Shown one piece after another: positions 1,084-15,661 of a stretch of 64,000 bases of DNA (position 1 is the stretch's first letter; each line of letters starts with the position of its first letter). Location: positions 1 through 64,000 of the forward strand of contig BPHE01000013.1 of assembly GCA_026003395.1 (NCBI GenBank). The letters run 5' to 3'. The notes beneath the pieces are model-generated. The model ran no database searches and had not been told where the DNA came from. It saw nothing but the letters and a program-made list of their open reading frames with translations. A program made the translations under genes and the position numbers. The stretch comes from Vicingaceae bacterium. Lineage in GTDB: Bacteria; Bacteroidota; Bacteroidia; Flavobacteriales_E; Vicingaceae.

Positions 1084-2246
1084 ATGAAAAATTTCAATTT
1101 TACACAAGAGCAAGTTACAAAAATTTTAGAAGAAATTGCTCAGAAAAAGGATGGTTTTCAAGAAGTTTTAAAAATCAGCTTTGAGGCGATCATGCGGGCT
1201 GAACGCGAGCTTCACAACCGGAAAGAAGGAGATATGAGCAATGGGTATCGCTATCGCAAGACCTTTGGAAAAGGAAAACTACCGGAACTAAGAGTGCCGC
1301 GCAGTCGCCGAGGGAATTTCTTTCCTATACTTTTGGCATTGTTGCGTAACCGGGAAGAGGAAGCCCGCAAACTTGCATTTAACTTGTATGGTGCCGGTCT
1401 GACGACAGCACAGGTTGGGGAGATATTTGGGGACATTTATGGAAAGCAATATAGTCCAAGTCAAATCAGCCGGTTGTTTGAGTATGCCCGGTCGGAAGTT
1501 CAGGCGTGGTTAACCCGGCCATTGGAATCCTATTACCCCATCATTCTGATAGATGCAACCTTTATACACACCCGAAGAGTGGATCACGTAAGCAAAGAGG
1601 CCTATTATACGATATTAGGTGTTCGAAAAGATCGCTCACGGGAGGTATTGGCCATTGTCAATTTCCCTACTGAAAGTGCTAAGGCATGGGAGGATGTTTT
1701 TGACGAATTAAAAAAGCGTGGTCTTCAACAGGTGGGTTTAGTCATTAGTGATGGACTGAAAGCCATAGAGGATGCTATTTGGAAAAAATTTCCTTCAACC
1801 CAAATACAATTATGCTCAATTCATCTGCAGAGAAATGTTCAAAAACGCGTCAAACCCAAGGATAAAGTCCGGGTAGCAGAAGATTTAAAAGATGTGTTCC
1901 GGACCGGCGACCGACATGATAGAAGTGTGAAAGGATGGGAACGTTGGATGAAATTTTGTCAAAAATGGGGGCGATGTTATCCCTCGCTTCAACGTATGGC
2001 TGAGGATCAAAGGTATAAGCTCTATTTTTGGATTATGATTACCGCATCCATAGCATGATTTACTCAACAAATTGGATAGAACGGCTTAACAGGGATTACA
2101 AGAGAACAATAAAAATGCGGGGTGCTTTACCAAATGCCGAAGCAACCATTTTGTTATTGGGATATGTGGCAATGACGCGAAATGCCTACCAAAGAAGATT
2201 GCCAAAGATAAACTATGAAACGAGAAAATTTAAATGGGATGAATGA
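1084..2246 (+). pseudogene. IS256 (mutator) family transposase, frameshifted
   Basis: DDE transposase. The first part (1084-2058, 324 aa) has the catalytic Asp region LIDATFIHTRR, the second Asp in VISDGLKAIEDAIWKKFP, and the C-H motif QLCSIHLQRNV. The last part (to 2246), with the catalytic Glu in YSTNWIERLNRDYKRTIK, is in the -1 frame. Adding one T to the T5 run at about 2026-2030 restores a continuous protein (KLYFLDYDYRIHSMIYSTNW), about 387 aa, close to the roughly 400 aa usual for the family. As read, the first fragment lacks the catalytic Glu and should be inactive. P-site slippage on T-TTT is conceivable, but IS256 elements do not normally use frameshifting. Confidence 0.85.
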
Positions 2247-2292
2247 TTGGAAGCTTGCTTCGTCTATGACTTCGCTTCGCTTCCAATCATTC
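2241..2292 (+). terminator. Hairpin at the 3' end of the transposase gene
   Basis: GAATGATTGGAAGC (2241-2254) is perfectly complementary to GCTTCCAATCATTC (2279-2292), giving a 14-bp stem that includes the transposase stop codon. Little U-tract follows. It probably ends transposase transcription or blocks outside transcription from entering the element. Confidence 0.5.
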
Positions 2293-2657: not shown

Positions 2658-4664
2658 CTATTCTCTTTCTTTCAATTTCGCAACAAATATTTCAATCATT
2701 TTACCACTGTGGTCTTTAATTTGATCTATGCCCCATTTTTCATATTCCATCATAATTCGTTGCTTTATGCTATCTATTGTTGGACTTTTTGCGTAATATT
2801 CTTTTTTTGCTGCAGGCATATGATTACTCAAACGTGAGTTTTTACTACTACTAATCAGACATAAATTTCCGAAATTGTCTAACCATTTAGCGTCTTCTCC
2901 CTTTAAAGCTTCTCCCTCAATAATAGGATGTTGAGGGTAATAGTGTTCTACTGAACTTCTAAATGTAAATTCAAAATCTTTTATACGATTGTCTGTAAAT
3001 GCTTGTTCTTTATTAATTTTAAAATAGTTTTTTTCGCCCATATAATCTTGCCACAATAAATAATCAAGGTAATTGAATATAAAGTTTTCCACATCAGTTC
3101 CTTGATTGAGTTTGTTTGTTATGGTATCTTGGGGAATGCATTTATTTTTGTAAATGCGTTTATTTTTGTATATAATATCAAAATAATCTATGGGTTCCTT
3201 TGCTAAAAACCTATCGTATAAGAATGCTTTTGCAAGTTTTTCAAGATATGTTTTATAATCGTTTGCCAAATTAGTTCCGGAATATTCTAAGACGAATTTC
3301 AACGAAGCGTTTAACCAATGCTTATAAACTAAAGCCGGACTTGAAACATGAAACATTGAAAGTAACATTAAAATTTCTCTATTTATTCCTTCATTACTCT
3401 CAGCATTGTCTGCATTAAATGTATTTACATAAGTTACTTGGTTAGCTTCATTCCGTTTCAAACGTTTTAAACTCCAATGGTCAGTTCCATTTGTAAACTC
3501 TCTTTTTATAATATATTTATCAAAATAGAATTTTCCCTTCAATAAATTGTAGCCGAATTGTTTTACGAACTCTTTATTCTTGTCTGGCTCAACTTCATTT
3601 TTCTTTAAAAATGGTTCAAAAAGTTCTAGTAATCGCTTGTCGTCTAATGGGATATTCTTAATTTTTTCATCGGTAATACTTTCATCTTGATTTACTTGTA
3701 TTCTCAAAATGTGAAGTAAAAAATTGGAAAAATTTATGACAGAGTTAAATCTATCGGGACTTTCTTCCTGAGTGCTTGAATTTTCAGTAATTGGTTTTGC
3801 TGTTTTTTCAAGAAGTTGGCTTATTGTCAAAGATTCTTCTGCAGCTTGGTTGGTAGTTGTATTTTGTAATTTCTGATAAAGAGATTCTTTGTCAACTAAA
3901 TTGTTCCAATCTTCACCAAATATCTCATTTCTTTGTGCAACTGAAAAACCGTACTGAACATATCTTTCCATATTTGAAGTTGCTTCCCATATCAAGTTGA
4001 AAGCATATTTCAAATTGTCGTCTTCCAAAATGTCAAGCATTTTTGCTTTTAAGATTTCGTGCTTTTCTAATTGTTCACCACGAGTATTCATTATCTCAAA
4101 ATAGTGATTCAAGTCAGTATCTTCAGGAACTAAAACACGTAAGATTATAACTTTTTTAAAAAAGTAATTGCAAAACATATCAATAGTTAATTTGTTTTCA
4201 GATAAAACTTTTGCTAATGATTTTTTTGCAATGTTATATCCTTGTCGAATAGCAGCATTACATTCCTTATTTTCTAAACTTTTGCCATTAAAAAGATACG
4301 AAAGTGTATCTGAGGCAAGTTTACGGCTATCAAAAGATAGATTAAGTTTTTTATACCAAGATAAATCAATCTTTGGATACTCTTTTTTGATTACATTTAA
4401 CAATATAGTCAATGTTGTTAAACGTTGTTGCCCGTCAATAATTTCATATTTTACATCACTCCCTAATTTTCTTTTGTAAACAATCAATGAACCGATGTAG
4501 TATTTGGTCTCTTTGCTTTTAAGAAGGTAATCCACTATGTCTTGGATGAGTTGGGTTATTTCAGGTTCTCCCCATTCGTAGTTTCTTTGATAGATTGGAA
4601 TTACATAATCATCAGATCTGAATAATTCCTTTATACTGAAATATTTTGGTTGTTTATCGTTCAT
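2658..4664 (-). CDS. DUF262 and DUF1524 protein (GmrSD-like type IV restriction enzyme family)
   Basis: A 668-aa protein from the ATG at 4664. That start sits in ATGAACGATAA, so it overlaps the stop of the upstream DUF262 gene by 11 nt and is preceded by GGGA; an in-frame start at 4724 would overlap by 71 nt. The N-terminal DUF262 (ParB/sulfiredoxin-like NTPase) domain shows IPIYQRNYEW, YIGSLIVYKR, the signature DGQQRLTTL and NTRGEQLEKHEILKAKML. A long helical middle follows. The last ~100 residues form DUF1524, an HNH-type nuclease, with the EHYYPQHP histidine and NFGNLCLISSSKNSRLSN. In GmrSD, SspE and BrxU, DUF262 binds and hydrolyses nucleotides and DUF1524 cuts DNA, usually modified phage DNA. 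The target here is unknown. Base composition is AT-richer than the flanks. Confidence 0.88.
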   Translation of the reverse strand: MNDKQPKYFSIKELFRSDDYVIPIYQRNYEWGEPEITQLIQDIVDYLLKSKETKYYIGSLIVYKRKLGSDVKYEIIDGQQRLTTLTILLNVIKKEYPKIDLSWYKKLNLSFDSRKLASDTLSYLFNGKSLENKECNAAIRQGYNIAKKSLAKVLSENKLTIDMFCNYFFKKVIILRVLVPEDTDLNHYFEIMNTRGEQLEKHEILKAKMLDILEDDNLKYAFNLIWEATSNMERYVQYGFSVAQRNEIFGEDWNNLVDKESLYQKLQNTTTNQAAEESLTISQLLEKTAKPITENSSTQEESPDRFNSVINFSNFLLHILRIQVNQDESITDEKIKNIPLDDKRLLELFEPFLKKNEVEPDKNKEFVKQFGYNLLKGKFYFDKYIIKREFTNGTDHWSLKRLKRNEANQVTYVNTFNADNAESNEGINREILMLLSMFHVSSPALVYKHWLNASLKFVLEYSGTNLANDYKTYLEKLAKAFLYDRFLAKEPIDYFDIIYKNKRIYKNKCIPQDTITNKLNQGTDVENFIFNYLDYLLWQDYMGEKNYFKINKEQAFTDNRIKDFEFTFRSSVEHYYPQHPIIEGEALKGEDAKWLDNFGNLCLISSSKNSRLSNHMPAAKKEYYAKSPTIDSIKQRIMMEYEKWGIDQIKDHSGKMIEIFVAKLKERE

Positions 4665-5982
4665 AATATCCCAATTTTTTGAATTGCTCAACAATTTCTT
4701 CTGTTTTACTTGATTTATTTTCACTTAGAGTTTCAGGTTGCAAGTTTAAAATAACCTTTGGATTAATTGCTTCCTTAATTTTTTTAAATATAGAATGCTC
4801 TTGATTTAGAGCATAATTATCAACTGAATTAAGTCTAACAGCTTGAAGTTTCAAACGCAATGAATACGCCCACACAAAAATTTTATCAATTGCTTTTTCC
4901 AAATCTTTGTCCCCGAATTTGTCTATGTAATAAATTAAGCCACAATAGAACAAGTTGCGAATATATTTGTCTCCTGTTCGAAAACTTCCCTCATAAGTTT
5001 TAATCAATTTCAAAATAGGATATTTATCACTCATTTCTTTTGATTTGATATTGTCAATCATAATTTGATAATATTCTATCATTTCAAAAAATCGTTTTCC
5101 ATTTATGATAATTCCGTCTATTTGAAAAGGAAAATCGATTTTGTTTTTGTCAATATTTCTGTGATATGAGCGGTTGTAATCATCAACATAAAAATGAGCA
5201 ATCCGAAACATTGCTGCAAATGGATAATTTTGTTCTGAATAGAGGTTTATTCCCTTGAATACATCAATATCATTCTTTGAAAAATACTGTGCAGAATATC
5301 CTTTGCTCCAATTTCGAATTCTGAATAAATACTGTGAAAACAATTTTGATAGTTTTTCTGTCTCCCAACTTTCCCATTTTTCAACTATTTTTTTGCGTTC
5401 TTCTTCTGTTGAAAAATTATTCATCTCCCTCAAGTGGAATGCTTTTAATAAGTCGTGGGGTTCAAGTTCTTTACCTCTTGTATTTTGGGAATCAAAAAAC
5501 TGAAATGCTTCTGATATATCATCCAAAACGACTTCAACCAAAGTACATTTTTCTAGAAAAAAATATATTGATTGTTCGTCAAAATCTTCAATTCGTCTTT
5601 GAATTTGTCTGTAGTTATTTTGGATATTCGCTTTTGAAATGTCATTGGTAAAAGATAAATTCAAAAGTTTGGGTTCAAAATTTTCAAATAGTTTTTCTTC
5701 TTCTTTTGTTTTGTTTTTTCTTTGCTTTATTGCATAGGCGATCAAAGTTAAAGTAATTGTTCTTTGCTGCCCATCGACAATATCAAAAATATCGTCGTGC
5801 TTATGAAGCACAAGAGTCCCCAAACGATATTCTGACTTTTCCTTATTTATCAGTATATCATCTATAAGTTGATTAACATTTTTAATTGTCCATTTATATG
5901 GCCGTTGAAAGTTTGGTATATTTAATTTATCGTTTGTAAGCAATTCTTTTACTTTTATTATCCGAGGTTGATTTTGCCCCAT
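4654..5982 (-). CDS. DUF262 family protein (RloF/GmrS-like), no nuclease domain
   Basis: A 442-aa protein, first gene of a two-gene operon. It has the DUF262 hallmarks: IPNFQRPYKW (about residues 22-31), LGTLVLHKHDD, the DGQQRTITLTLI signature near residue 70, and FDSQNTRGKELEPHDLLKAF, which parallels NTRGEQLEKHEILKAKML in its partner. The C-terminal half is helical and ends without the histidine/asparagine motif of DUF1524. It may be a sensor or regulatory subunit of the DUF262-DUF1524 protein encoded with an 11-nt overlap downstream. No methyltransferase, helicase or integrase lies beside the pair. A TATATTTG promoter element is seen at 6034-6041. An anti-phage role is an inference from the family. 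Confidence 0.85.
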   Translation of the reverse strand: MGQNQPRIIKVKELLTNDKLNIPNFQRPYKWTIKNVNQLIDDILINKEKSEYRLGTLVLHKHDDIFDIVDGQQRTITLTLIAYAIKQRKNKTKEEEKLFENFEPKLLNLSFTNDISKANIQNNYRQIQRRIEDFDEQSIYFFLEKCTLVEVVLDDISEAFQFFDSQNTRGKELEPHDLLKAFHLREMNNFSTEEERKKIVEKWESWETEKLSKLFSQYLFRIRNWSKGYSAQYFSKNDIDVFKGINLYSEQNYPFAAMFRIAHFYVDDYNRSYHRNIDKNKIDFPFQIDGIIINGKRFFEMIEYYQIMIDNIKSKEMSDKYPILKLIKTYEGSFRTGDKYIRNLFYCGLIYYIDKFGDKDLEKAIDKIFVWAYSLRLKLQAVRLNSVDNYALNQEHSIFKKIKEAINPKVILNLQPETLSENKSSKTEEIVEQFKKLGYYER

Positions 5983-6033
5983 AAATTTTGTTGTTAGATT
6001 TCGGTTGTCTTTCTAAGTGTTCATATGTAAGTC

Positions 6034-6060
6034 CAAATATACTCCATATATCCTTTTCAA
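6034..6060 (-). promoter_or_regulatory. Predicted Bacteroidota-type promoter of the DUF262 operon
   Basis: On the minus strand TATATTTG (6041-6034) matches the -7 consensus TAnnTTTG. A TTG at 6060-6058 lies 16 nt upstream, slightly closer than the usual 19-20. The leader to the ATG at 5982 would be about 45 nt. Confidence 0.45.
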
Positions 6061-6082
6061 CATTTTTAGTGTCTTTTATTTT

Positions 6083-6117
6083 GAACCACTATTGCCCGAT
6101 AAAAATCAAAAGTAGTA
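6083..6117 (+). repeat. Short interspersed repeat, copy C
   Basis: GAACCACTATTGCCCGATAA then AAATCAAAAGTAGTAA, the best-preserved partner of copy A at 976-1010, in the same orientation. Copies A and C sit on either side of the IS256 element and the DUF262 operon. Confidence 0.6.
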
Positions 6118-6309
6118 ATTTTATCGAAAGTGTTGATTTTATTGAGGTTGTTTTTTTAATTTTTACCCTATGTTTTGCCAAATAGTAAATGAAGTTTATA
6201 GTTTCGAGGGATTCGCTTTCTTATACTCAATCATTTTAAGGATTTTCAATTATGTCATTAAAATTTGAAAGAAGTTCACACAACAATAAGAACATTTGAG
6301 AATGTGTTT

Positions 6310-7491
6310 TTATCCTTTCAAATAATAAACCATCCAGGCCATTAGACCGGCGCCAACCACCAATGCGTCTTCATTCACATCAAAATCAGGAGCATGCAGA
6401 CGTTTGATGTTTTTTTGATTTTCCCAACCTGTGCCCAATCTGTAGAAACATCCCGAGATCTCTTGTGTATAATAAGCAAAATCTTCGGCGGTCATTCTCA
6501 TATCCAACTCTGTAACCTGATCTTTGCCTAAAAATTCTTCTGCCGCCTTTTTACAATTCCGGGTTAATTGAGGATCATTTATCAAAACAGGGTAACCTTT
6601 TTTTATCTCAATTTCTGCCTTACAGCCATAGATTGAAGCGGCATGACCGGCTGTATCCTTGATTAAATCATGTATTTTGTTTCTTAAAGATTCGTCGAAT
6701 GTCCGTAATGTCCCTTCCAGGTAAACATTGTCGGGAATAACATTTGTGGCACCTGCGGCCAATATTTTACCCACAGACAAAACGCATGGGATCTTGGGAT
6801 CGACCATACGCGAAACTATTGTTTGTAATGACAATATCACATGAGCAGCAGCCACAACAGGGTCTTTCAATCTTTCGGGCATGGCTGCATGCCCCCCCAC
6901 TCCTTTTATATTTATATAAATTTCATCGGTTGATGCCATGTAGGGCCCTGGTCTGAAACCCACCTTTCCGGCCGGCAATTCAGGATATACATGTTGTCCA
7001 ATAATATGCTTCGCCGGATGTTTTTTAAACAATCCTTGTTGCATCATCAAAGATGCGCCCCCGGGTAATTTTTCTTCTCCCGGCTGAAAAATTATATTGA
7101 CAGTGCCGGCAAAATCATTATGATCATGCAATACTGAAGCCGCTATCAACAGACAAGCTGTATGAACATCATGTCCGCAGGCATGCATTACGCCGGAATT
7201 TTGCGAAGCATATTGGCAATCATTCTCTTCTTGTATTGGCAATGCATCCATGTCGGCACGCAAAGCTATGGCATCTCCGGAGCGTTTGCCATGGATTGTG
7301 GCAACGATTCCTGTACCTGCCCAACCTGTTTCAAAATCAATTCCCCATTTTTTCAACAATGTGGAAATATATTCTGAAGTTTTATATTCTTCAAAAGACA
7401 ATTCGGGATATTGGTGCAAATGCCTTCTGATGGCTGTCAATTCTCCCTTTCTCTCTTCTATAAGTTTTTTTAGTGTCTCTACTGCAATCAT
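6310..7491 (-). CDS. M20 family amidohydrolase (N-acyl-amino acid / hippurate hydrolase type)
   Basis: A 393-aa cytoplasmic metallopeptidase-fold hydrolase that removes acyl groups from N-acyl amino acids or similar amides. The metal-binding motif HACGHDVH is at residues 103-110, FQPGEE with the catalytic glutamate pair at about 135-140, and RADMDALP at about 78-85. The central GGHAAMPERLKDPV belongs to the dimerisation domain, and a late metal-ligand His lies in RLHAPDFDVNEDAL. The ATG overlaps the stop of the upstream TSUP gene in ATGA. The exact substrate cannot be read from sequence; IAA-amino-acid hydrolase, acetyldiaminopimelate deacetylase and hippuricase all share this architecture. 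Confidence 0.92.
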   Translation of the reverse strand: MIAVETLKKLIEERKGELTAIRRHLHQYPELSFEEYKTSEYISTLLKKWGIDFETGWAGTGIVATIHGKRSGDAIALRADMDALPIQEENDCQYASQNSGVMHACGHDVHTACLLIAASVLHDHNDFAGTVNIIFQPGEEKLPGGASLMMQQGLFKKHPAKHIIGQHVYPELPAGKVGFRPGPYMASTDEIYINIKGVGGHAAMPERLKDPVVAAAHVILSLQTIVSRMVDPKIPCVLSVGKILAAGATNVIPDNVYLEGTLRTFDESLRNKIHDLIKDTAGHAASIYGCKAEIEIKKGYPVLINDPQLTRNCKKAAEEFLGKDQVTELDMRMTAEDFAYYTQEISGCFYRLGTGWENQKNIKRLHAPDFDVNEDALVVGAGLMAWMVYYLKG

Positions 7492-7871
7492 TTGGAGAAA
7501 AAAATGAGTTTAATGGCAACAAACATCATGACAGCCCCGAAAATCTTTTTCAACAAAGATTCACTGATTACATAAATAGATAATCTGGAACCAAAATATG
7601 CGCCTAAAACAAAAAATATGGCAATTATTATGGCATAATGTATGTTTAATGCCCCCGCTTTGTAATAATTATAAGCTGCCAGCGCTCCTACGGGTGGCAA
7701 CATAATGGCAATGCTCGTACCTTGAGCTTCGAGTTGAGACATTCCAAGAAAAAAAACCAATGCAGGCACCATTATGATACCGCCTCCCACTCCTATCATC
7801 CCACTTAAGATTCCGGCTGCCAGCCCAATCAAAATCAAAATTAAATATGTTTCCATACTTAGTTTTTTCAT
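7488..7871 (-). CDS. Half-size TSUP (TauE/SafE) family membrane protein
   Basis: A 127-aa integral membrane protein with four likely membrane helices and the TSUP signature GMIGVGGGIIMVPALV near the N-terminus. Full TSUP permeases are about 250 aa with two such halves; this is one half, so it may act as a homodimer. I see no frameshifted second half. It overlaps the M20 gene by 4 nt (ATGA) and starts 6 nt after the upstream outer-membrane gene. Substrates in the family are small anions such as sulfite or sulfoacetate; the substrate here is unknown. Confidence 0.82.
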   Translation of the reverse strand: MKKLSMETYLILILIGLAAGILSGMIGVGGGIIMVPALVFFLGMSQLEAQGTSIAIMLPPVGALAAYNYYKAGALNIHYAIIIAIFFVLGAYFGSRLSIYVISESLLKKIFGAVMMFVAIKLIFFSK

Positions 7872-7877
7872 AAATTA

Positions 7878-10800
7878 TTAAATATCTAAACAAAGCGATA
7901 AATAAAAAATCGGTTTTTGCACCTTGCCATCCACAACCCCCCAAGCCCAGTCGGTACGCACAAAATATCCCAAAATTCTGCTTCTTAGGCCAAAGCCATA
8001 ACCGCCCACTATCGGATATGAACTATCGTAAAGTACTATCGTCAAAGGACCATCCTGAATTATTTTCCGGTTGATTGAGTTTTCGCTGCTAAATGGGTCT
8101 AATCCATTCCATGCCGTGCCCAGATCACCAAAGCCAACGATCTGGAAATTTGATATGAAAGATGATTTTATCGGACGGCGTATGAAATACTTGAATACCG
8201 GCCAACGCAACTCTGTATTAATTACGGCAAATGAGTTTCCGTTGCGTATGTTTTGATTAAATCCGCGCATGGGTGATGCCAATGTTTGAAAACGGTAATT
8301 TTGGGTATAATCAATGGCTTGATCATAGTTAAATCTTGGTGTTTTACCAAGGATGATCCAATCATCCACACTACCTAAATAATAGATCAACTTTTGCTTT
8401 CCAAAAGAAGTACCTCCGGCCAGACGTGTGACAAATGTTATTTCGCGATGAATTTTCTGGTAATGCCTCAAATCCAGTCCGGCTACAAATACATTATACC
8501 TTTGTTTGTCAAACGCAGGAACATTGCTAAACAAATAATAAAACTTATCGTCGTTCTTTTGTATTTGTTGGTAATATTCCCCCCATATTTTAAAGCGAGT
8601 GCCATTAAAAATATTCAGCATGACAAATTTTGTGTTGTCAAATACATAGGCCATTCTCAAAACGCCCCAGTAATCATGAAAATCGGGAACCTGAAGCGAA
8701 AATGATTCATTGGCTTTAGTCACAATCTGATCATGCCGTAGTTTTATTGTTGTTCTAATCGATGCAACGGCACTGAACGGATACCGCCAGCTGTAATTTA
8801 ATTCATCAGTAATAAATTGATATGTAGAAAATTCATTACCGTTGCGATTTGTCCGCCGGGTAAACAACCATTCTTTATCTGCACGGTATTTTAAATTTTG
8901 ATATCCCATAAAGTATTCCATAGAAGCCCCGCCAAAACGCACTCCCCCATACACTTTATAATCCTCAAATATGTCGCTGATTCCCATTTTCATAACGGCT
9001 CCTAATCCTGGTGCAATAAAGGGACCTCCGTTAAAAATTTGATATTGCCCATTGACAAAATTGCTATTCAACTGTGTGATGGATTCGTCCGTGAAAAATG
9101 AAAGAAAATATACTCTGGGCTTCTGAATAACAAGTCCTGTATCATTTATAAAATTTGCACTCTTTTTATTTATTTTAAATTGATTGCTTTCTTCTTTTTT
9201 GTTTTTTTCACTTTCTCCACCAATCATTATGACCTTTTTGTTTATTGTTATGCCATCTTCTGTCTTGCGGGTGATTTGTTCAAACTTGTAATTATTATAG
9301 TCGATGTGGGAAGAGTCGAGCGTTGGTTCGATTATGGGCTGAACAATATATGGCAATAAATTATCGTCAGAATATTGATTTTGATCATCATTACCGGCAA
9401 TTTGGTTGAGATGTTTTTTGCTTAAATCATCTATAGATGCAATAAACAAGTAATCGCGCCATTTGTTTTTTTTGAAATAGAACAAACGACTATCGCCAAA
9501 GTCATAATAGCGGATATTGTTGGGCCATTCGTCCAAAGACACAGACGTATAAAAATACCGATAGTGTATGGCTGTATCCACAAATGCAATTGAACTGTCA
9601 AATTTGGCAAAATGAGGAACCAAATTGGATTGTTTTTCCTTCAAATAATAAATACCCGAATCAGTGGAAAGAGGCATATATTTGTTTGTTCCTTTTTCAT
9701 TATCGACTATTTGCAAAGGATATGGATTTTTAAGATCAGCCATTTGTTTAAGATTTCCCCTGTAAAGATGATATAAGTTTGGATAATACAAATTGGGCAC
9801 ATCAATATGCAATGAATCAATTGATCGGTTTGAGACAAAAAATATTTCTTCTCCGTTTTTGGAAAAAACAGGCATGAGATCGTCAAAAACATCATTGGTT
9901 AATTGTTTCTGAGAGTTTGAAACAGAGTTGTAAAGATATAAGTCGGTTTGTCCTTTATGAAAAGCAGAAAAAACAATTTCTCGTCCATTGGGAGCGATAT
10001 CAAAATCCAAAACTTTTTCGAGGTTAAAAATGGGCTTTTGATCTATCACACCGGTTTCACTGTCGTAAAAATGTATCAACATTTCTCCTTTCCTTTCTGT
10101 AAAAAAAACGAGTGTTTTTCCATTGGGATGCCATTTTACTACCGGTAATTTTGTGTCGTTGATACGGTCTAACTTAATTCCGCCTTTGAATATCTTAAAA
10201 CGTTTATTGCTTTCAATATCGTGAATCCAGATTTTGTATTTACCCATCTTATGCGTTACATAAGCAACTTGTTTTAATTCAGGGTTATATGAAAGATGAC
10301 GGTATTGTAAATGACGTTTACCTGTTTTTTTCAAAACATTAGAAACAAAGGGTTTGTTTCCGGAGTTTTTTCTTCTTACATAATCTTCATAATAATTAAT
10401 CCATTCTCGGGTCAAACTTTTGGATGACATGCCCAATACATACAAATAGCCACTTTCAATACTACGGGTAATTCTGACCATGGATATAATGTTGGGAATT
10501 ACTTTCTCGCCGTATGATTGGGCAATATAATACCATAAACTGTGACCGGCGAGTATCGCTTGTTCTCCGGAGAGTTTATTGAATGATTTAAATTTCTTGT
10601 TTTTTATTCCGTCTTCAATAAAATCTTCTATCGTCCAATCCCATGGTTTTGAGAGATAAGAAATTAATCCTTTCATATACCAATCCGGCAAAGAAAGTAG
10701 CGTGGAATTTTTTAAAACCTCTCTCCAATTATCTCCATATACCATTTGATTAAGCAAAGCTTCGGCGATTCCTGCTTTTATTTGTTGCTCCAAATCAAGA

Positions 10801-11210
10801 TGAGATCCTTCAAAATATAAAAATACTTTATTCCCAAAAATTTTTACCACACCTCCGGTATTATAATTTTCTTCATCAGCAATTCCGGCATTACTTTGAT
10901 GAAAGTGAGAAAGTTTATTGTAAAGAATAAATTGCAGACGTTCTGTGAAATAAAAATCAAAAAACTCTTCGTATATTCTCATGTTTTGATTGGCTACTCT
11001 GACAACATATTCGGCCGGTTCTTTGCCTCCTTCATAATAATAAACTTCGAATCTTGGCTGCCGTATAAATTGCCATTTAAACTCATCATATTGCACGCGG
11101 TTTTTGCCAAATTCATTATGTGAGCCATTGTAAAATTGTGCTTGTAAATGGATATTTAACAAGAAAAAAACAAATAAAATAAACAACCGCCTTAGGTTTT
11201 TAAAAGACAT
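7878..11210 (-). CDS. Outer-membrane protein with TolB-like propeller and Omp85-type beta-barrel
   Basis: About 1110 aa from the ATG at 11210; a TTG further upstream would bury the signal peptide behind a charged leader. A signal peptide (LFILFVFFLLNIHLQAQ) opens the protein. The next ~300 residues resemble a peptidase-MA-like domain (LPDWYMKGLISYLSKPWD) with no HExxH, so probably not a protease. Then come PD40/WD40-like repeats (WHPNGKTLVFFTERKG, IAPNGREIVFSAFHKG, FSKNGEEIFFVSNRS). The last ~400 residues are aromatic-rich beta strands with RGFNQNIRNGNSFAVINTEL, typical of the BamA/D15 surface-antigen barrel. This combination is known in Bacteroidota, but its function is not established. It follows the ALDH gene by 46 nt and leads the TSUP-M20 pair. 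Confidence 0.82.
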   Translation of the reverse strand: MSFKNLRRLFILFVFFLLNIHLQAQFYNGSHNEFGKNRVQYDEFKWQFIRQPRFEVYYYEGGKEPAEYVVRVANQNMRIYEEFFDFYFTERLQFILYNKLSHFHQSNAGIADEENYNTGGVVKIFGNKVFLYFEGSHLDLEQQIKAGIAEALLNQMVYGDNWREVLKNSTLLSLPDWYMKGLISYLSKPWDWTIEDFIEDGIKNKKFKSFNKLSGEQAILAGHSLWYYIAQSYGEKVIPNIISMVRITRSIESGYLYVLGMSSKSLTREWINYYEDYVRRKNSGNKPFVSNVLKKTGKRHLQYRHLSYNPELKQVAYVTHKMGKYKIWIHDIESNKRFKIFKGGIKLDRINDTKLPVVKWHPNGKTLVFFTERKGEMLIHFYDSETGVIDQKPIFNLEKVLDFDIAPNGREIVFSAFHKGQTDLYLYNSVSNSQKQLTNDVFDDLMPVFSKNGEEIFFVSNRSIDSLHIDVPNLYYPNLYHLYRGNLKQMADLKNPYPLQIVDNEKGTNKYMPLSTDSGIYYLKEKQSNLVPHFAKFDSSIAFVDTAIHYRYFYTSVSLDEWPNNIRYYDFGDSRLFYFKKNKWRDYLFIASIDDLSKKHLNQIAGNDDQNQYSDDNLLPYIVQPIIEPTLDSSHIDYNNYKFEQITRKTEDGITINKKVIMIGGESEKNKKEESNQFKINKKSANFINDTGLVIQKPRVYFLSFFTDESITQLNSNFVNGQYQIFNGGPFIAPGLGAVMKMGISDIFEDYKVYGGVRFGGASMEYFMGYQNLKYRADKEWLFTRRTNRNGNEFSTYQFITDELNYSWRYPFSAVASIRTTIKLRHDQIVTKANESFSLQVPDFHDYWGVLRMAYVFDNTKFVMLNIFNGTRFKIWGEYYQQIQKNDDKFYYLFSNVPAFDKQRYNVFVAGLDLRHYQKIHREITFVTRLAGGTSFGKQKLIYYLGSVDDWIILGKTPRFNYDQAIDYTQNYRFQTLASPMRGFNQNIRNGNSFAVINTELRWPVFKYFIRRPIKSSFISNFQIVGFGDLGTAWNGLDPFSSENSINRKIIQDGPLTIVLYDSSYPIVGGYGFGLRSRILGYFVRTDWAWGVVDGKVQKPIFYLSLCLDI

Positions 11211-11256
11211 AAAACCTGCAGAAATTTTTTTCTTATGTAGAATTTTGACCAAAACT

Positions 11257-12807
11257 TTAAATTTCAAATTTAATTCCTTGAGCCAATGGCAGGTCTGTTC
11301 CGTAATTTATGGTGTTTGTTTGACGGCGCATGTATGCTTTCCAGGCATCCGATCCACTTTCACGACCGCCACCGGTTTCTTTCTCACCGCCAAAAGCCCC
11401 ACCTATCTCGGCTCCTGAAGTACCTATGTTGACATTGGCAATGCCACAATCGGATCCTTCACAAGACAAGAAGAATTCTGCTTCTCTTAAGTTTAAAGTC
11501 ATGATTGCCGAAGATAGCCCTTGCTTCACTCCGTTTTGCATTTCTATGGCTTCTTCAATGGTTTTGTATTTCATGACATAAAGTATCGGGGCAAACGTTT
11601 CTTCTTGTACGATAGAATAGTGATTTTCCACTTCTGCAATTGCCGGTTTAACATAACAACCGCTTTCATAGCCGGGACCTTCCAATACACCGCCTTCTAC
11701 AATCCATTTTCCACCTTCTTCTTCCACACGTTTAAGGGCTTCTAAATATTTTTCTACGGCTTGCTTGTCGATCAACGGACCGACATGATTGTTTGCATCC
11801 AAAGGATTGCCAATACGCAATTGTCGATAAGCATTTTTTAATCTTTCGATTACTTCTTCATAAATGTTTTCATGAACAATTAATCTGCGTGTTGTGGTGC
11901 AACGTTGTCCGGCGGTACCAACAGCGCCAAATACAATTGCCGGTATTGACATTTTTAGATCAGCCGAAGGAGTGACAATGATCGCATTATTACCACCAAG
12001 TTCAAGCAACGACCTTCCTAAACGTGCACCAACCGCAGCTCCAACTTTTTTTCCCATTGCTGTTGATCCGGTGGCCGACACTAAGGGCACACGTACGTCG
12101 TGGGCAATTAATTCACCTATTCGATAATCTCCGATGATCAAGCATGATACTCCTTCGGGCACATTGTTACGTTCAAAAACTTTTTGTATGATTGACTGGC
12201 AGGCAATGGCACATAAAGGCACTTTTTCCGATGGTTTCCACACACACACGTCACCACATACCCACGCTATCATAGCATTCCAACTCCATACAGCCACAGG
12301 AAAATTAAAAGCACTGATAATTCCCACAATTCCCAAGGGATGCCATTGCTCATACATTCTATGATGGGGTCTTTCCGAATGCATGGTCAGACCATACAAC
12401 TGACGGGATAATCCTACCGCAAAATCACAAATATCAATCATCTCTTGCACCTCTCCCAAACCTTCCTGCAATGATTTCCCCATTTCATAAGAGACCAATT
12501 TGCCCAAAGGTTCTTTATATTTTCTCAATTCATCCCCTATTTGTCTAACTATCTCTCCTCTTTTGGGAGCAGGCCACTTTCGCCATTCTTTAAACGCTTT
12601 TTCCGCTTGTATGATGATTTTTTCATAATCTTCCTTTTGGGCACTTTTTAATGAGGCAATTTCCTTTGCATCCACCGGAGAGTATGATATGATTGTATCA
12701 CCGTTTGTCTCCCACCAGTTTTTGCCGGTTGAGGCCCCTTTTAAATGATCATATACTCCCAAAATTTCCAATTCTTTTGCCACCGGAATTTCCATTGTTT
12801 TTTCCAT
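11257..12807 (-). CDS. ALDH7-type aldehyde dehydrogenase (alpha-aminoadipic semialdehyde dehydrogenase-like)
   Basis: 516 aa. NAD(P)-dependent oxidation of an aldehyde, in the ALDH7/antiquitin group most likely L-aminoadipate-6-semialdehyde (lysine breakdown). The subfamily signature GLTMHSERPHHRMYEQWHP is present (about 139-157). Catalytic residues are Asn168 (SAFNFP), Glu269 (LELGGNN) and Cys303 (GTAGQRCTTTRR). Length matches the family. The start ATG at 12807 has a second in-frame ATG four codons later. A TAATTTTG promoter element lies at 12831-12838. No other lysine-degradation gene is nearby; the downstream gene is an envelope protein, so the operon gives no pathway support. Confidence 0.92.
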   Translation of the reverse strand: MEKTMEIPVAKELEILGVYDHLKGASTGKNWWETNGDTIISYSPVDAKEIASLKSAQKEDYEKIIIQAEKAFKEWRKWPAPKRGEIVRQIGDELRKYKEPLGKLVSYEMGKSLQEGLGEVQEMIDICDFAVGLSRQLYGLTMHSERPHHRMYEQWHPLGIVGIISAFNFPVAVWSWNAMIAWVCGDVCVWKPSEKVPLCAIACQSIIQKVFERNNVPEGVSCLIIGDYRIGELIAHDVRVPLVSATGSTAMGKKVGAAVGARLGRSLLELGGNNAIIVTPSADLKMSIPAIVFGAVGTAGQRCTTTRRLIVHENIYEEVIERLKNAYRQLRIGNPLDANNHVGPLIDKQAVEKYLEALKRVEEEGGKWIVEGGVLEGPGYESGCYVKPAIAEVENHYSIVQEETFAPILYVMKYKTIEEAIEMQNGVKQGLSSAIMTLNLREAEFFLSCEGSDCGIANVNIGTSGAEIGGAFGGEKETGGGRESGSDAWKAYMRRQTNTINYGTDLPLAQGIKFEI

Positions 12808-12830
12808 AATCAGTGATTTTTAATTTTCAT

Positions 12831-12838
12831 CAAAATTA
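12831..12838 (-). promoter_or_regulatory. Predicted -7 promoter element of the ALDH gene
   Basis: Minus strand reads TAATTTTG, matching TAnnTTTG, 23 nt before the ATG. No clear TTTG is seen at the -33 position. Confidence 0.35.
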
Positions 12839-13056
12839 AGCATTTCAATAAAGAATTTTTTAAATTTAGATTTAAAAAATTAAAATAAAATAATCTCGAG
12901 AATATGCAAATGAGTCATCGAATCGAATGATTATACAAGATATAAAAGATTTGTGCATAAGTCCATGACAAAGAAATTCAAAAAAAGTAAAATAACCGGG
13001 AAAGAGGGTATTTATATATCCGGAATTTTGAAGGCAGAAATTACATGCTTAAAATG

Positions 13057-14610
13057 TTACATTTCAAGAATTTTAAACTCGACCCTGCGGTTTAACTGTC
13101 TATTTTCTTCACTGTCGTTGGGCACCATGGGTTGTAATTTTCCGTACCCTTTAAAACTCAATCGATCGGGAGATATCCCCAACCGGATGAGATAATCTAC
13201 AACCGATTTGGCCCTTGCCTCAGAAAGTTTCTGATTGTAATCTTGCGACCCAATATCATCTGTATGTCCGGAAATTTCAATTTTCACATTTGGATTTTGT
13301 TTCAGAAAATCATAAACCCGCTCCAACTCAACTTTTGATTCAGGTCTCAATGTTGCTTTGTTGTAGTCGAAAAAGATATTTCTTAGCACAACTTTTGAAC
13401 CTTTTTTGGCTTTTTGCAGAAAGATGTTTTTAACAATTTTTTGATAAGTAGCCGTGTCGGCTATAGTGAAATTCTCGGAATGAAACAAATAACCCGGTGC
13501 ACTGACATTGAGTCCATAGTTTTTGCCACTGGGCAATGATATCAGATATTCACCTGTTTCACCGTTTGATTGATAAACCCCAATCAATTCATTCGTGGCA
13601 TTGTCAACCAATTCGATTGTTGCCTGAATTGGTTGTTTTGTTTCATCATCAGCCACAATCCCTTTTAATAGTAATAAAGACGGTTGTTTTGCTTTCGCTT
13701 TTGTTTCAAAAGAAATTTCATAAATATCTTTATCGCCGTTATTATTAACAGATGCATAATATGCTTTTTTACCATCTGCCCTTAACACAAAAAAGAGGTC
13801 ATCGCCATGTGTATTGACGGGTATACCCAAATTTACGGGTTCTGACCACTCTCCATCTTCATAAACAGAGTAAAAAATATCATATCCACCAATAGAATTA
13901 TGTCCTTTTGACGAAAAAAACAATGTTTTACCATCAGGATGAATAAAAACGGCCTCTTCATCTTCTGTTGTGTTAATCGGTGCGCCAAGATTCTTTGGCG
14001 TACTCCATTTTCCGGTTTTCAAGTCCTTTTTACTAACCCAAATATCCCGGCCTCCTTTGCCTCCCGGTCTGTCACTGACAAAATACAAAGTTCGACCATC
14101 CGGAGAATATGCCGCTGATGATTCATGATATTGAGAATTGACAGGTTCCGGCAACGCTACAGGATTTGTCCATTCTTTTCCTCTTAAAATACTCTCATGA
14201 ATATCTCCATTGCCATTAACATCATCCTGATAAATCAACAAACGTTGTCCGTCATTGCTAACAGCAATATTTGAAGAGTGCCTTACGGGAATATTAATGT
14301 TTTCGGGTAATGGTTTTGCCTTACTCCATTCTTTTCCTTTTTCATCCCACACAGCAAAATAAATGTGTTCAAAACTTTGTTTATTTTTTTTGATTTCTTT
14401 CTCTGTAAAAGGTCTTCTAGACGTAAAAAATATTTTTTCCCCATCGGCCGTTATGACAGGTGCATAATCATCGAAGGGGCTATTTATTGCATCGGGTAAT
14501 GGCTGTATATTGATTTTTACAGAATCGTTATTAAACACATTTTGTGCGTATATAGCCTGAAGATTAAACACACAATATCCTAACAACAAAAAGCACAATT
14601 TTCTAATCAT
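13057..14610 (-). CDS. OmpA-family protein with PD40 propeller (PorE-like, T9SS-associated)
   Basis: 517 aa. Signal peptide (LCFLLLGYCVFNLQAIYAQ), then five or more PD40 repeats with the pattern DG-(K/R)-x-(I/L)-(Y/F)-F-x-S (ADGEKIFFTSRR, PDGRTLYFVSDRPGGKGGRD, PDGKTLFFSSKGHNSIGGYD) over about residues 50-300. A carboxypeptidase-regulatory-like domain follows (GIVADDETKQPIQATIEL). The C-terminal OmpA domain binds peptidoglycan (FDYNKATLRPESKVELERVY, SGHTDDIG, NRRVEFKILEM). PorE of Porphyromonas has the same order plus TPRs, which are absent here. It lies 13 nt downstream of a PorP/SprF gene, as in PorP-PorE pairs, which suggests an envelope-anchoring role for a T9SS subassembly. Confidence 0.88.
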   Translation of the reverse strand: MIRKLCFLLLGYCVFNLQAIYAQNVFNNDSVKINIQPLPDAINSPFDDYAPVITADGEKIFFTSRRPFTEKEIKKNKQSFEHIYFAVWDEKGKEWSKAKPLPENINIPVRHSSNIAVSNDGQRLLIYQDDVNGNGDIHESILRGKEWTNPVALPEPVNSQYHESSAAYSPDGRTLYFVSDRPGGKGGRDIWVSKKDLKTGKWSTPKNLGAPINTTEDEEAVFIHPDGKTLFFSSKGHNSIGGYDIFYSVYEDGEWSEPVNLGIPVNTHGDDLFFVLRADGKKAYYASVNNNGDKDIYEISFETKAKAKQPSLLLLKGIVADDETKQPIQATIELVDNATNELIGVYQSNGETGEYLISLPSGKNYGLNVSAPGYLFHSENFTIADTATYQKIVKNIFLQKAKKGSKVVLRNIFFDYNKATLRPESKVELERVYDFLKQNPNVKIEISGHTDDIGSQDYNQKLSEARAKSVVDYLIRLGISPDRLSFKGYGKLQPMVPNDSEENRQLNRRVEFKILEM

Positions 14611-14623
14611 AAGGACTTCGGAA

Positions 14624-15661
14624 TTAAATTCTGGATTTATTCATGGCACCACCAAAAGGAGAAGGATAAACAAAACGAAGCATAACCTCGAAACCACCCC
14701 TGCCTTTTGATGCCTGCTGCAACGATGACGTATTCAGATCATACGCAAAACCCAATGCATAGTTACTCCATTCCAACAAAAACTTAAAAACAATCGCATC
14801 TTTATTCCTGTAAAATATCCCGGGTCCAAATGCTATGGCATCCTTCAAACCGGTATATTTCGACCCCTCTTGAAATTGATATCTTATGTATGTACCCATT
14901 AATAACTCCCTCGCAGGTCCCTGCATTTGATAAAACACCGATGGTGCTGCCGAAAATTTACTATTGCCTATTCCCACCAACCCCCTCGCAAATATCGATA
15001 TCCGGCTGTATAGTTTGTCATTGCTTAAATCTATAAATCCATACTTTGCCCGATTTAAATGATACATCGCCACACCTGCCGAAAACCATTGTTGATCCCC
15101 GCCTATTTTATATGTGTCGTGTTTTTTGTAATTGTATACTACCCCCACTCCTGCATCAAAAAATCCAAAAGACGAGTTGCTCACAAATTCGTTGGAGGGT
15201 AGTGTACCATCCCATTTCAACCCATTGTATTGCGAACCCCAACGGGCATCATCGTAATTGATGCTGTTTTGATGATAGGCCCCCAACAAGGCGCCTCCAA
15301 GTGTTTGTCCTTCGCCAATCTTCACATGATAGCCAAATGATAGGGAAATATTCGTGGCACTCACTTTTACCTCTCCTGCCTGATCGCTAAAAAATTGCAA
15401 TCCTCCTGCAAAATAACCTTTTTTATTTCGCTTGTTGTTTAAGCGCATATCAAACGATGCATTGATGGTCTTGAAAGGATAGGATATGCTTTGCCATTGA
15501 GACCGATACAATGCTATAGCTTGTAATTCATGATCGGCTCCCACTAACGCAGGATTAACCTGTATGGGCGAATAATTCATTTGTGAAAAATGCACGTCTT
15601 GAGCAAAAGCCGCCGTAAGCGTAATTAAACAAGAAGCAAGTAAATATTTTTTCATGCACAT
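14624..15661 (-). CDS. PorP/SprF family type IX secretion membrane protein
   Basis: 345 aa. Signal peptide (KKYLLASCLITLTAAFAQ) followed at once by the family start DVHFSQMNYSPIQVNPALVG. The rest is an outer-membrane beta-barrel of alternating strands (AIALYRSQWQSISYPFKTIN, GGLQFFSDQAGE, SLSFGYHVKIGEG), ending in AFAYDLNTSSLQQASKGRGG and FEVMLRFVY. PorP/SprF proteins localise to the outer membrane and assist T9SS secretion, typically of type B CTD substrates. Two ATGs (15661 and 15655) are possible starts. It is first in a two-gene operon with the PorE-like gene. A 13-bp hairpin (15701-15741) separates it from the gene upstream. Confidence 0.93.
   Translation of the reverse strand: MCMKKYLLASCLITLTAAFAQDVHFSQMNYSPIQVNPALVGADHELQAIALYRSQWQSISYPFKTINASFDMRLNNKRNKKGYFAGGLQFFSDQAGEVKVSATNISLSFGYHVKIGEGQTLGGALLGAYHQNSINYDDARWGSQYNGLKWDGTLPSNEFVSNSSFGFFDAGVGVVYNYKKHDTYKIGGDQQWFSAGVAMYHLNRAKYGFIDLSNDKLYSRISIFARGLVGIGNSKFSAAPSVFYQMQGPARELLMGTYIRYQFQEGSKYTGLKDAIAFGPGIFYRNKDAIVFKFLLEWSNYALGFAYDLNTSSLQQASKGRGGFEVMLRFVYPSPFGGAMNKSRI

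Follow-up and report, generated by a model that had tools for sequence, protein, structure and literature searches.

The closest described relative of the locus considered here is TgvAB of Vibrio cholerae VPI-2, published in 2024 and encoded by VC1767/VC1766, in which a DUF262 protein (TgvA) is combined with a second protein that carries DUF262 and DUF1524 (TgvB) (PMC11411939). Neither gene is protective alone, and protection is abolished by mutation of the DGQQR motif in either protein or by mutation of H571 or N602 in TgvB; the phages targeted are T-even phages with sugar-modified hydroxymethylcytosine (PMC11411939). TgvAB was first described inside a type I restriction locus, and its authors also report copies outside such loci, with 1,341 tgvAB matches versus 79 in the five-gene operon (PMC11411939). 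GrwAB, described in 2025, is a second two-protein system, composed of two DUF262 proteins that are both needed and of which one has DUF1524 (PMC12137116); its nuclease gene, GrwA, comes first and is followed by the partner GrwB, which has an extended C-terminus with multiple unknown domains and is regarded as different from TgvA (PMC12137116; review PMC12409362). In addition, BrxU (PMC10952713) and DndI (PMC11662687) are homodimers, and DUF262 genes adjoining GmrSD genes, together with a link to type I restriction, had already been noted by Machnicka et al. in 2015 (PMC4619093).

The operon compared with these systems lies in a stretch of 64,000 nucleotides from a Vicingaceae bacterium (contig BPHE01000013.1), hereafter the window. 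With a probability of about 0.86, it is a two-protein type IV (modification-dependent) restriction system of the TgvAB type that was acquired by its Bacteroidota host. A sequence-only reading of the same DNA had regarded the arrangement as a departure from known layouts; it is instead the layout of TgvAB (PMC11411939), of which GrwAB provides a second example (PMC12137116), and the pair thus falls to a system that already bears a name.

Architecture of the two genes

The two overlapping minus-strand genes, with A upstream of B, were recovered with the lengths and the overlap originally described (Table 1). Translation of A and B could be coupled through the shared nucleotides, and a GTG further upstream in the frame of B is also a possible start that would give a protein of 688 aa. 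A gene was looked for in the ~140 bp upstream of A (to position 6120, the end of the region first noted) and none was found; a promoter and terminator scan of the operon likewise returned nothing useful beyond its AT-rich composition.

Table 1. Features of the operon and of the adjoining transposase remnant; positions refer to the window and residues to the respective protein.
Feature	Position	Strand	Details
Gene A (TgvA-like)	4654..5982	-	442 aa
Gene A, DUF262/GmrSD_N (PF03235)	residues 11-183		Pfam E 5e-33
Gene A, DUF7834 (PF25202)	residues 195-428		Pfam E 6.3e-79
A stop / B start overlap	4654..4664	-	ATGAACGATAA, 11 nt
Gene B (TgvB-like)	2658..4664	-	668 aa, ATG at 4664
Gene B, DUF262/GmrSD_N (PF03235)	residues 11-209		Pfam E 1.5e-34
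Gene B, DUF1524/GmrSD_C (PF07510), His-Me nuclease	residues 533-658		Pfam E 4.4e-13
Mutator/IS256-type transposase remnant	1084..2248	+	frameshift near 2050; ORF to 2058, then other frame to about 2248

The initial description of B as a DUF262 protein with a C-terminal DUF1524 was borne out by Pfam, in which DUF1524 is matched in B only and DUF262 in both proteins. The DUF262 motifs of B are Q26R27, D77GQQR81, and F189..N193, the nuclease residues H574, N600, and N609 (H...N...N) are intact, and a helical linker with a disordered loop at about residues 272-300 is located between the two domains. The predicted structure of B is confident (pLDDT 89) and matches the structures of DndI (E 2e-12), SspE (E 2e-8), and BrxU (E 2e-4). 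Among the PADLOC families, A and B give only partial DUF262 matches, to the Orf5, HEC-06, and SspE models, and among the NCBIfam families the pair has no match except one by chance. In four relatives (L039, L064, L077, and L091), B is longer, at 832-961 aa, and its nuclease domain is followed by about 150-300 additional residues without a Pfam match.

Gene A had been described as carrying DUF262 only, which proved wrong, because its C-terminal half is covered by DUF7834, a Pfam family of unknown function; both domains are present in all 63 A proteins of one alignment (A3). The motifs of A are Q26-R27, D70GQQR74, and F163xxxN167. Its predicted structure is confident (pLDDT 91), with DUF7834 modeled as all-helical, and it matches DndI and SspE significantly and BrxU weakly in the PDB. 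All significant PDB matches of the A model are DUF262 enzymes, and none of them separately explains the C-terminal half by a known fold. The possibility that DUF7834 and the helical linker of B are homologous, in which case A would equal B minus its nuclease, was rejected, as hhalign of the C-terminal half of A against B gave a probability of 1-2%; similarly, the full-profile alignment of A and B ends near the end of DUF262, which lends no support to an origin of A as a nuclease-less B.

Kinship with the Vibrio loci and unity of the pair

Orthologues of TgvAB were sought by a DUF7834 search of the genus Vibrio, and the loci were then read. Two of these, L158 and L161, show the order hsdM-hsdS-A-B-hsdR; the flanking genes of L158 were all checked with Pfam, and hsdM and hsdR of L158 and L161 were assigned by sequence match. 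In both loci, B is a protein of 663 aa with H571 and N602, the exact residue numbers published for TgvB, to which H574 and N609 (plus N600) of the window B are equivalent. A of L158 carries DUF262 and DUF7834 (E 2e-43), and A of L161 also matches DUF7834. We take these loci as TgvAB or its immediate orthologues, on the basis of residue numbering, gene order, and genus rather than of the VC1767/VC1766 sequences. The window proteins align with this Vibrio pair over most of their length, A at 27% identity over 384 aa (E 1e-28) and B at 25% identity over 678 aa (E 3e-46), which suggests that the window pair is a distant member of the TgvAB kind; because the identity to the Vibrio group is only about 25%, its target and mode may differ.

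The comparison of loci covered 80 genome loci and 7 plasmid loci, plus the Vibrio and Bacteroidota loci. Wherever the downstream DNA was readable, B directly follows A on the same strand, both in 99 complete pairs and in loci with a broken B; the 3 A genes without B are all at a contig edge. An overlap of A and B is the rule among the relatives, most often of 8, 11, 4, 17, or 14 nt. In a mirror-tree comparison, pairwise distances in the A tree correlate with those in the B tree at r 0.974, or 0.935 without the divergent loci, versus a highest r of 0.384 (all) and 0.147 (without the divergent loci) in 1000 shuffles. In the 100 pairs compared, the QR, DGQQR, and FxxxN-type motifs of A are invariant, as are DGQQR, H574, N600, and N609 of B. 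A and B are an obligate, co-evolving unit.

This unity bears on an alternative in which B would be a self-sufficient nuclease of the GmrSD/BrxU/HEC-06 type, and A, instead of being a structural or sensing subunit, would work independently or in an accessory role, such as against a phage-encoded inhibitor like IPI*. B does have the complete DUF262-linker-DUF1524 layout of the single-protein enzymes and is matched in part by HEC-06 models, and the TgvAB authors raise the possibility that TgvA serves in inhibitor evasion (PMC11411939). However, TgvB alone was unprotective in the published assay, and mutation of DGQQR, a motif that is invariant in A, abolishes defense when introduced into TgvA (PMC11411939); the essentially universal pairing and the strongly co-varying trees point in the same direction, and the alternative is considered unlikely.

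Against its three nearest relatives, at 75-81% protein identity, the window A has a dN/dS of about 0.16-0.21 and the window B of about 0.13-0.20, values which indicate that neither gene is decaying and that the window copy is a maintained system. The pair could otherwise be regarded as a decayed or inactive remnant beside an IS element, given that a frameshifted Mutator/IS256-type transposase adjoins it and that B is broken in some relatives (L017, L074, L080, and a second locus of the same genome); this is highly improbable, since both window genes are intact, all active-site residues are kept, and dN/dS is low in both. The more particular concern that A might be a decayed, unpaired copy can be dismissed on the intact motifs of 100 A proteins, the dN/dS of A, and the near-universal pairing.

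The second TgvAB-like locus of the same genome (L136; contig C3:160000-179999, positions 5278-15307) is divergent and tandemly duplicated, in two copies of 5,017 bp that are 99.9% identical. In the copy that was examined, the low-complexity loop of B contains the in-frame stops TAA and TGA in direct succession, which leave products of 314 + 352 aa, and both ORFs recur in the second copy; B may have decayed here, or its DUF262 and nuclease parts may be naturally separate proteins.

Distribution and genomic setting

The branch that includes the window pair spans Bacteroidota, Pseudomonadota, Campylobacterota, Spirochaetota, Verrucomicrobiota, cyanobacterial plasmids, and archaeal MAGs, with about 40-80% identity inside the branch. 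DUF7834 is present in 6 of 395 Bacteroidota genomes, the source genome of the window among them, and about 1,000 plasmid records, mostly from Klebsiella, match the pair. About 900 Klebsiella plasmids (e.g., L013 and L008), most of them conjugative, carry it annotated merely as two DUF262 proteins. No full-length match was found in the phage collection and 6 loci were found in IMG/VR, which places the pair mainly on chromosomes and plasmids.

Within the stretches read, type I restriction genes accompany 48 of the 99 related loci, often with the pair exactly between hsdS and hsdR; AddAB-like helicase/nuclease genes occur in 4, directly flanking the pair in 2; and 47 have neither. The window copy belongs to this last group, as do L014-L018, its nearest relatives. 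On a plasmid of Aliarcobacter cibarius (L007, 3654-12323) and in Arcobacter vandammei (L048), A-B is placed inside a tightly overlapping four-gene operon, flanked by a PD-(D/E)XK nuclease gene (AddB-like) and a UvrD-helicase/PD-(D/E)XK gene (AddA-like), with no type I locus. In five Bacteroidota loci (L066, L068, L069, L071, and L093), a solitary HsdM-like N6 DNA methyltransferase of about 467 aa directly follows B (Pfam applied to L066 only).

Beside the window copy there are no hsd genes; no defense island was detected among the Pfam-typed neighboring genes, and ten further proteins between 32 and 64 kb gave no PADLOC match. Housekeeping genes occur on both sides of the operon and the transposase remnant. 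The GC content of the operon is 29%, with a GC3 of 0.24-0.25, versus 0.34-0.43 and 0.34-0.37, respectively, in the other window genes. Acquisition of the window copy is probable in view of the low GC, the patchy distribution, and the IS remnant; composition and distribution thereby uphold the corresponding view of the sequence-only reading. An empty-site comparison gave no readable site, as dapD and the M20 peptidase gene are either widely separated or on separate contigs in the listed relatives, and the relatives searched included no member of the same genus.

Mode of action and comparison with known systems

As a TgvAB-type system, A and B would act as a single hetero-oligomer, comparable to the BrxU and DndI homodimers. 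The DUF262 domains of both proteins would bind and hydrolyze NTP and would recognize hypermodified bases on phage DNA as it enters; such recognition would then lead to cleavage by the His-Me (DUF1524) nuclease that forms the end of B. A would add a second, non-identical DUF262 and the helical DUF7834 as a partner, clamp, or specificity arm that is required for activity, and would share in NTP hydrolysis and in the sensing of modified bases, leaving cleavage to B, which holds the only nuclease of the complex. By analogy with these enzymes, A most likely belongs to a DUF262-containing hetero-oligomer, the contact between the A and B subunits being putative, and the activity of the window copy is presumably that of its V. 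cholerae relative. A hetero-oligomer of one nuclease and one non-nuclease partner, as proposed from the outset, would fit the evidence. Of the two modes put forward along with it, the modification-dependent one fits the evidence, whereas the abortive one is not favored by the growth data for TgvAB and GrwAB (PMC11411939, PMC12137116). It may further be suggested, tentatively and with less than even confidence, that the large branch with the window pair reads a DNA modification other than T-even sugar-hydroxymethylcytosine, with DUF7834 as an activity or specificity domain that makes the non-nuclease DUF262 partner essential for nuclease gating in the hetero-oligomer.

DUF7834, a Pfam family of unknown function, now has a place in a recently described two-protein restriction system, as part of the partner subunit, and the pair is spread over several bacterial phyla, archaeal MAGs, and about 1,000 plasmids. 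Since the pair is obligate, co-evolving, and widespread, the question of why TgvB needs TgvA becomes approachable by comparative means.

Among the known systems, GmrS and GmrD of E. coli CT596 are likewise encoded by two genes and perform type IV restriction, but DUF262 and DUF1524 are on separate proteins there, whereas the window B has both and DUF262 is also on A. The single-protein GmrSD family (Eco94GmrSD, BrxU = HEC-05, HEC-06, SspE, and DndI 9JFL) has the DUF262-linker-DUF1524 layout in common with B; in this family one polypeptide suffices and there is no DUF262-DUF7834 partner, while the window B adjoins A, as in all readable loci. GrwAB also places two DUF262 proteins together, one with DUF1524 and both required (PMC12137116), and the window pair might accordingly be assigned to it; yet the window partner gene comes first and is short (442 aa), with a single DUF7834 after DUF262 as in the TgvAB-type Vibrio loci, in contrast to the nuclease-first order of GrwAB and its long, multi-domain partner set apart from TgvA, and such an assignment can scarcely be entertained. 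With TgvAB, the window pair shares the order A then B, the two DUF262 domains, a DUF1524 His-Me nuclease in B only, DUF7834 on A (as seen in the L158/L161 orthologue group), a short gene overlap, and relatives that sit between hsdS and hsdR; it differs in its identity of about 25-27%, its Bacteroidota host, and its setting without type I restriction genes. The window copy is therefore an ordinary member of a widespread type and represents an already described system, not a new layout.
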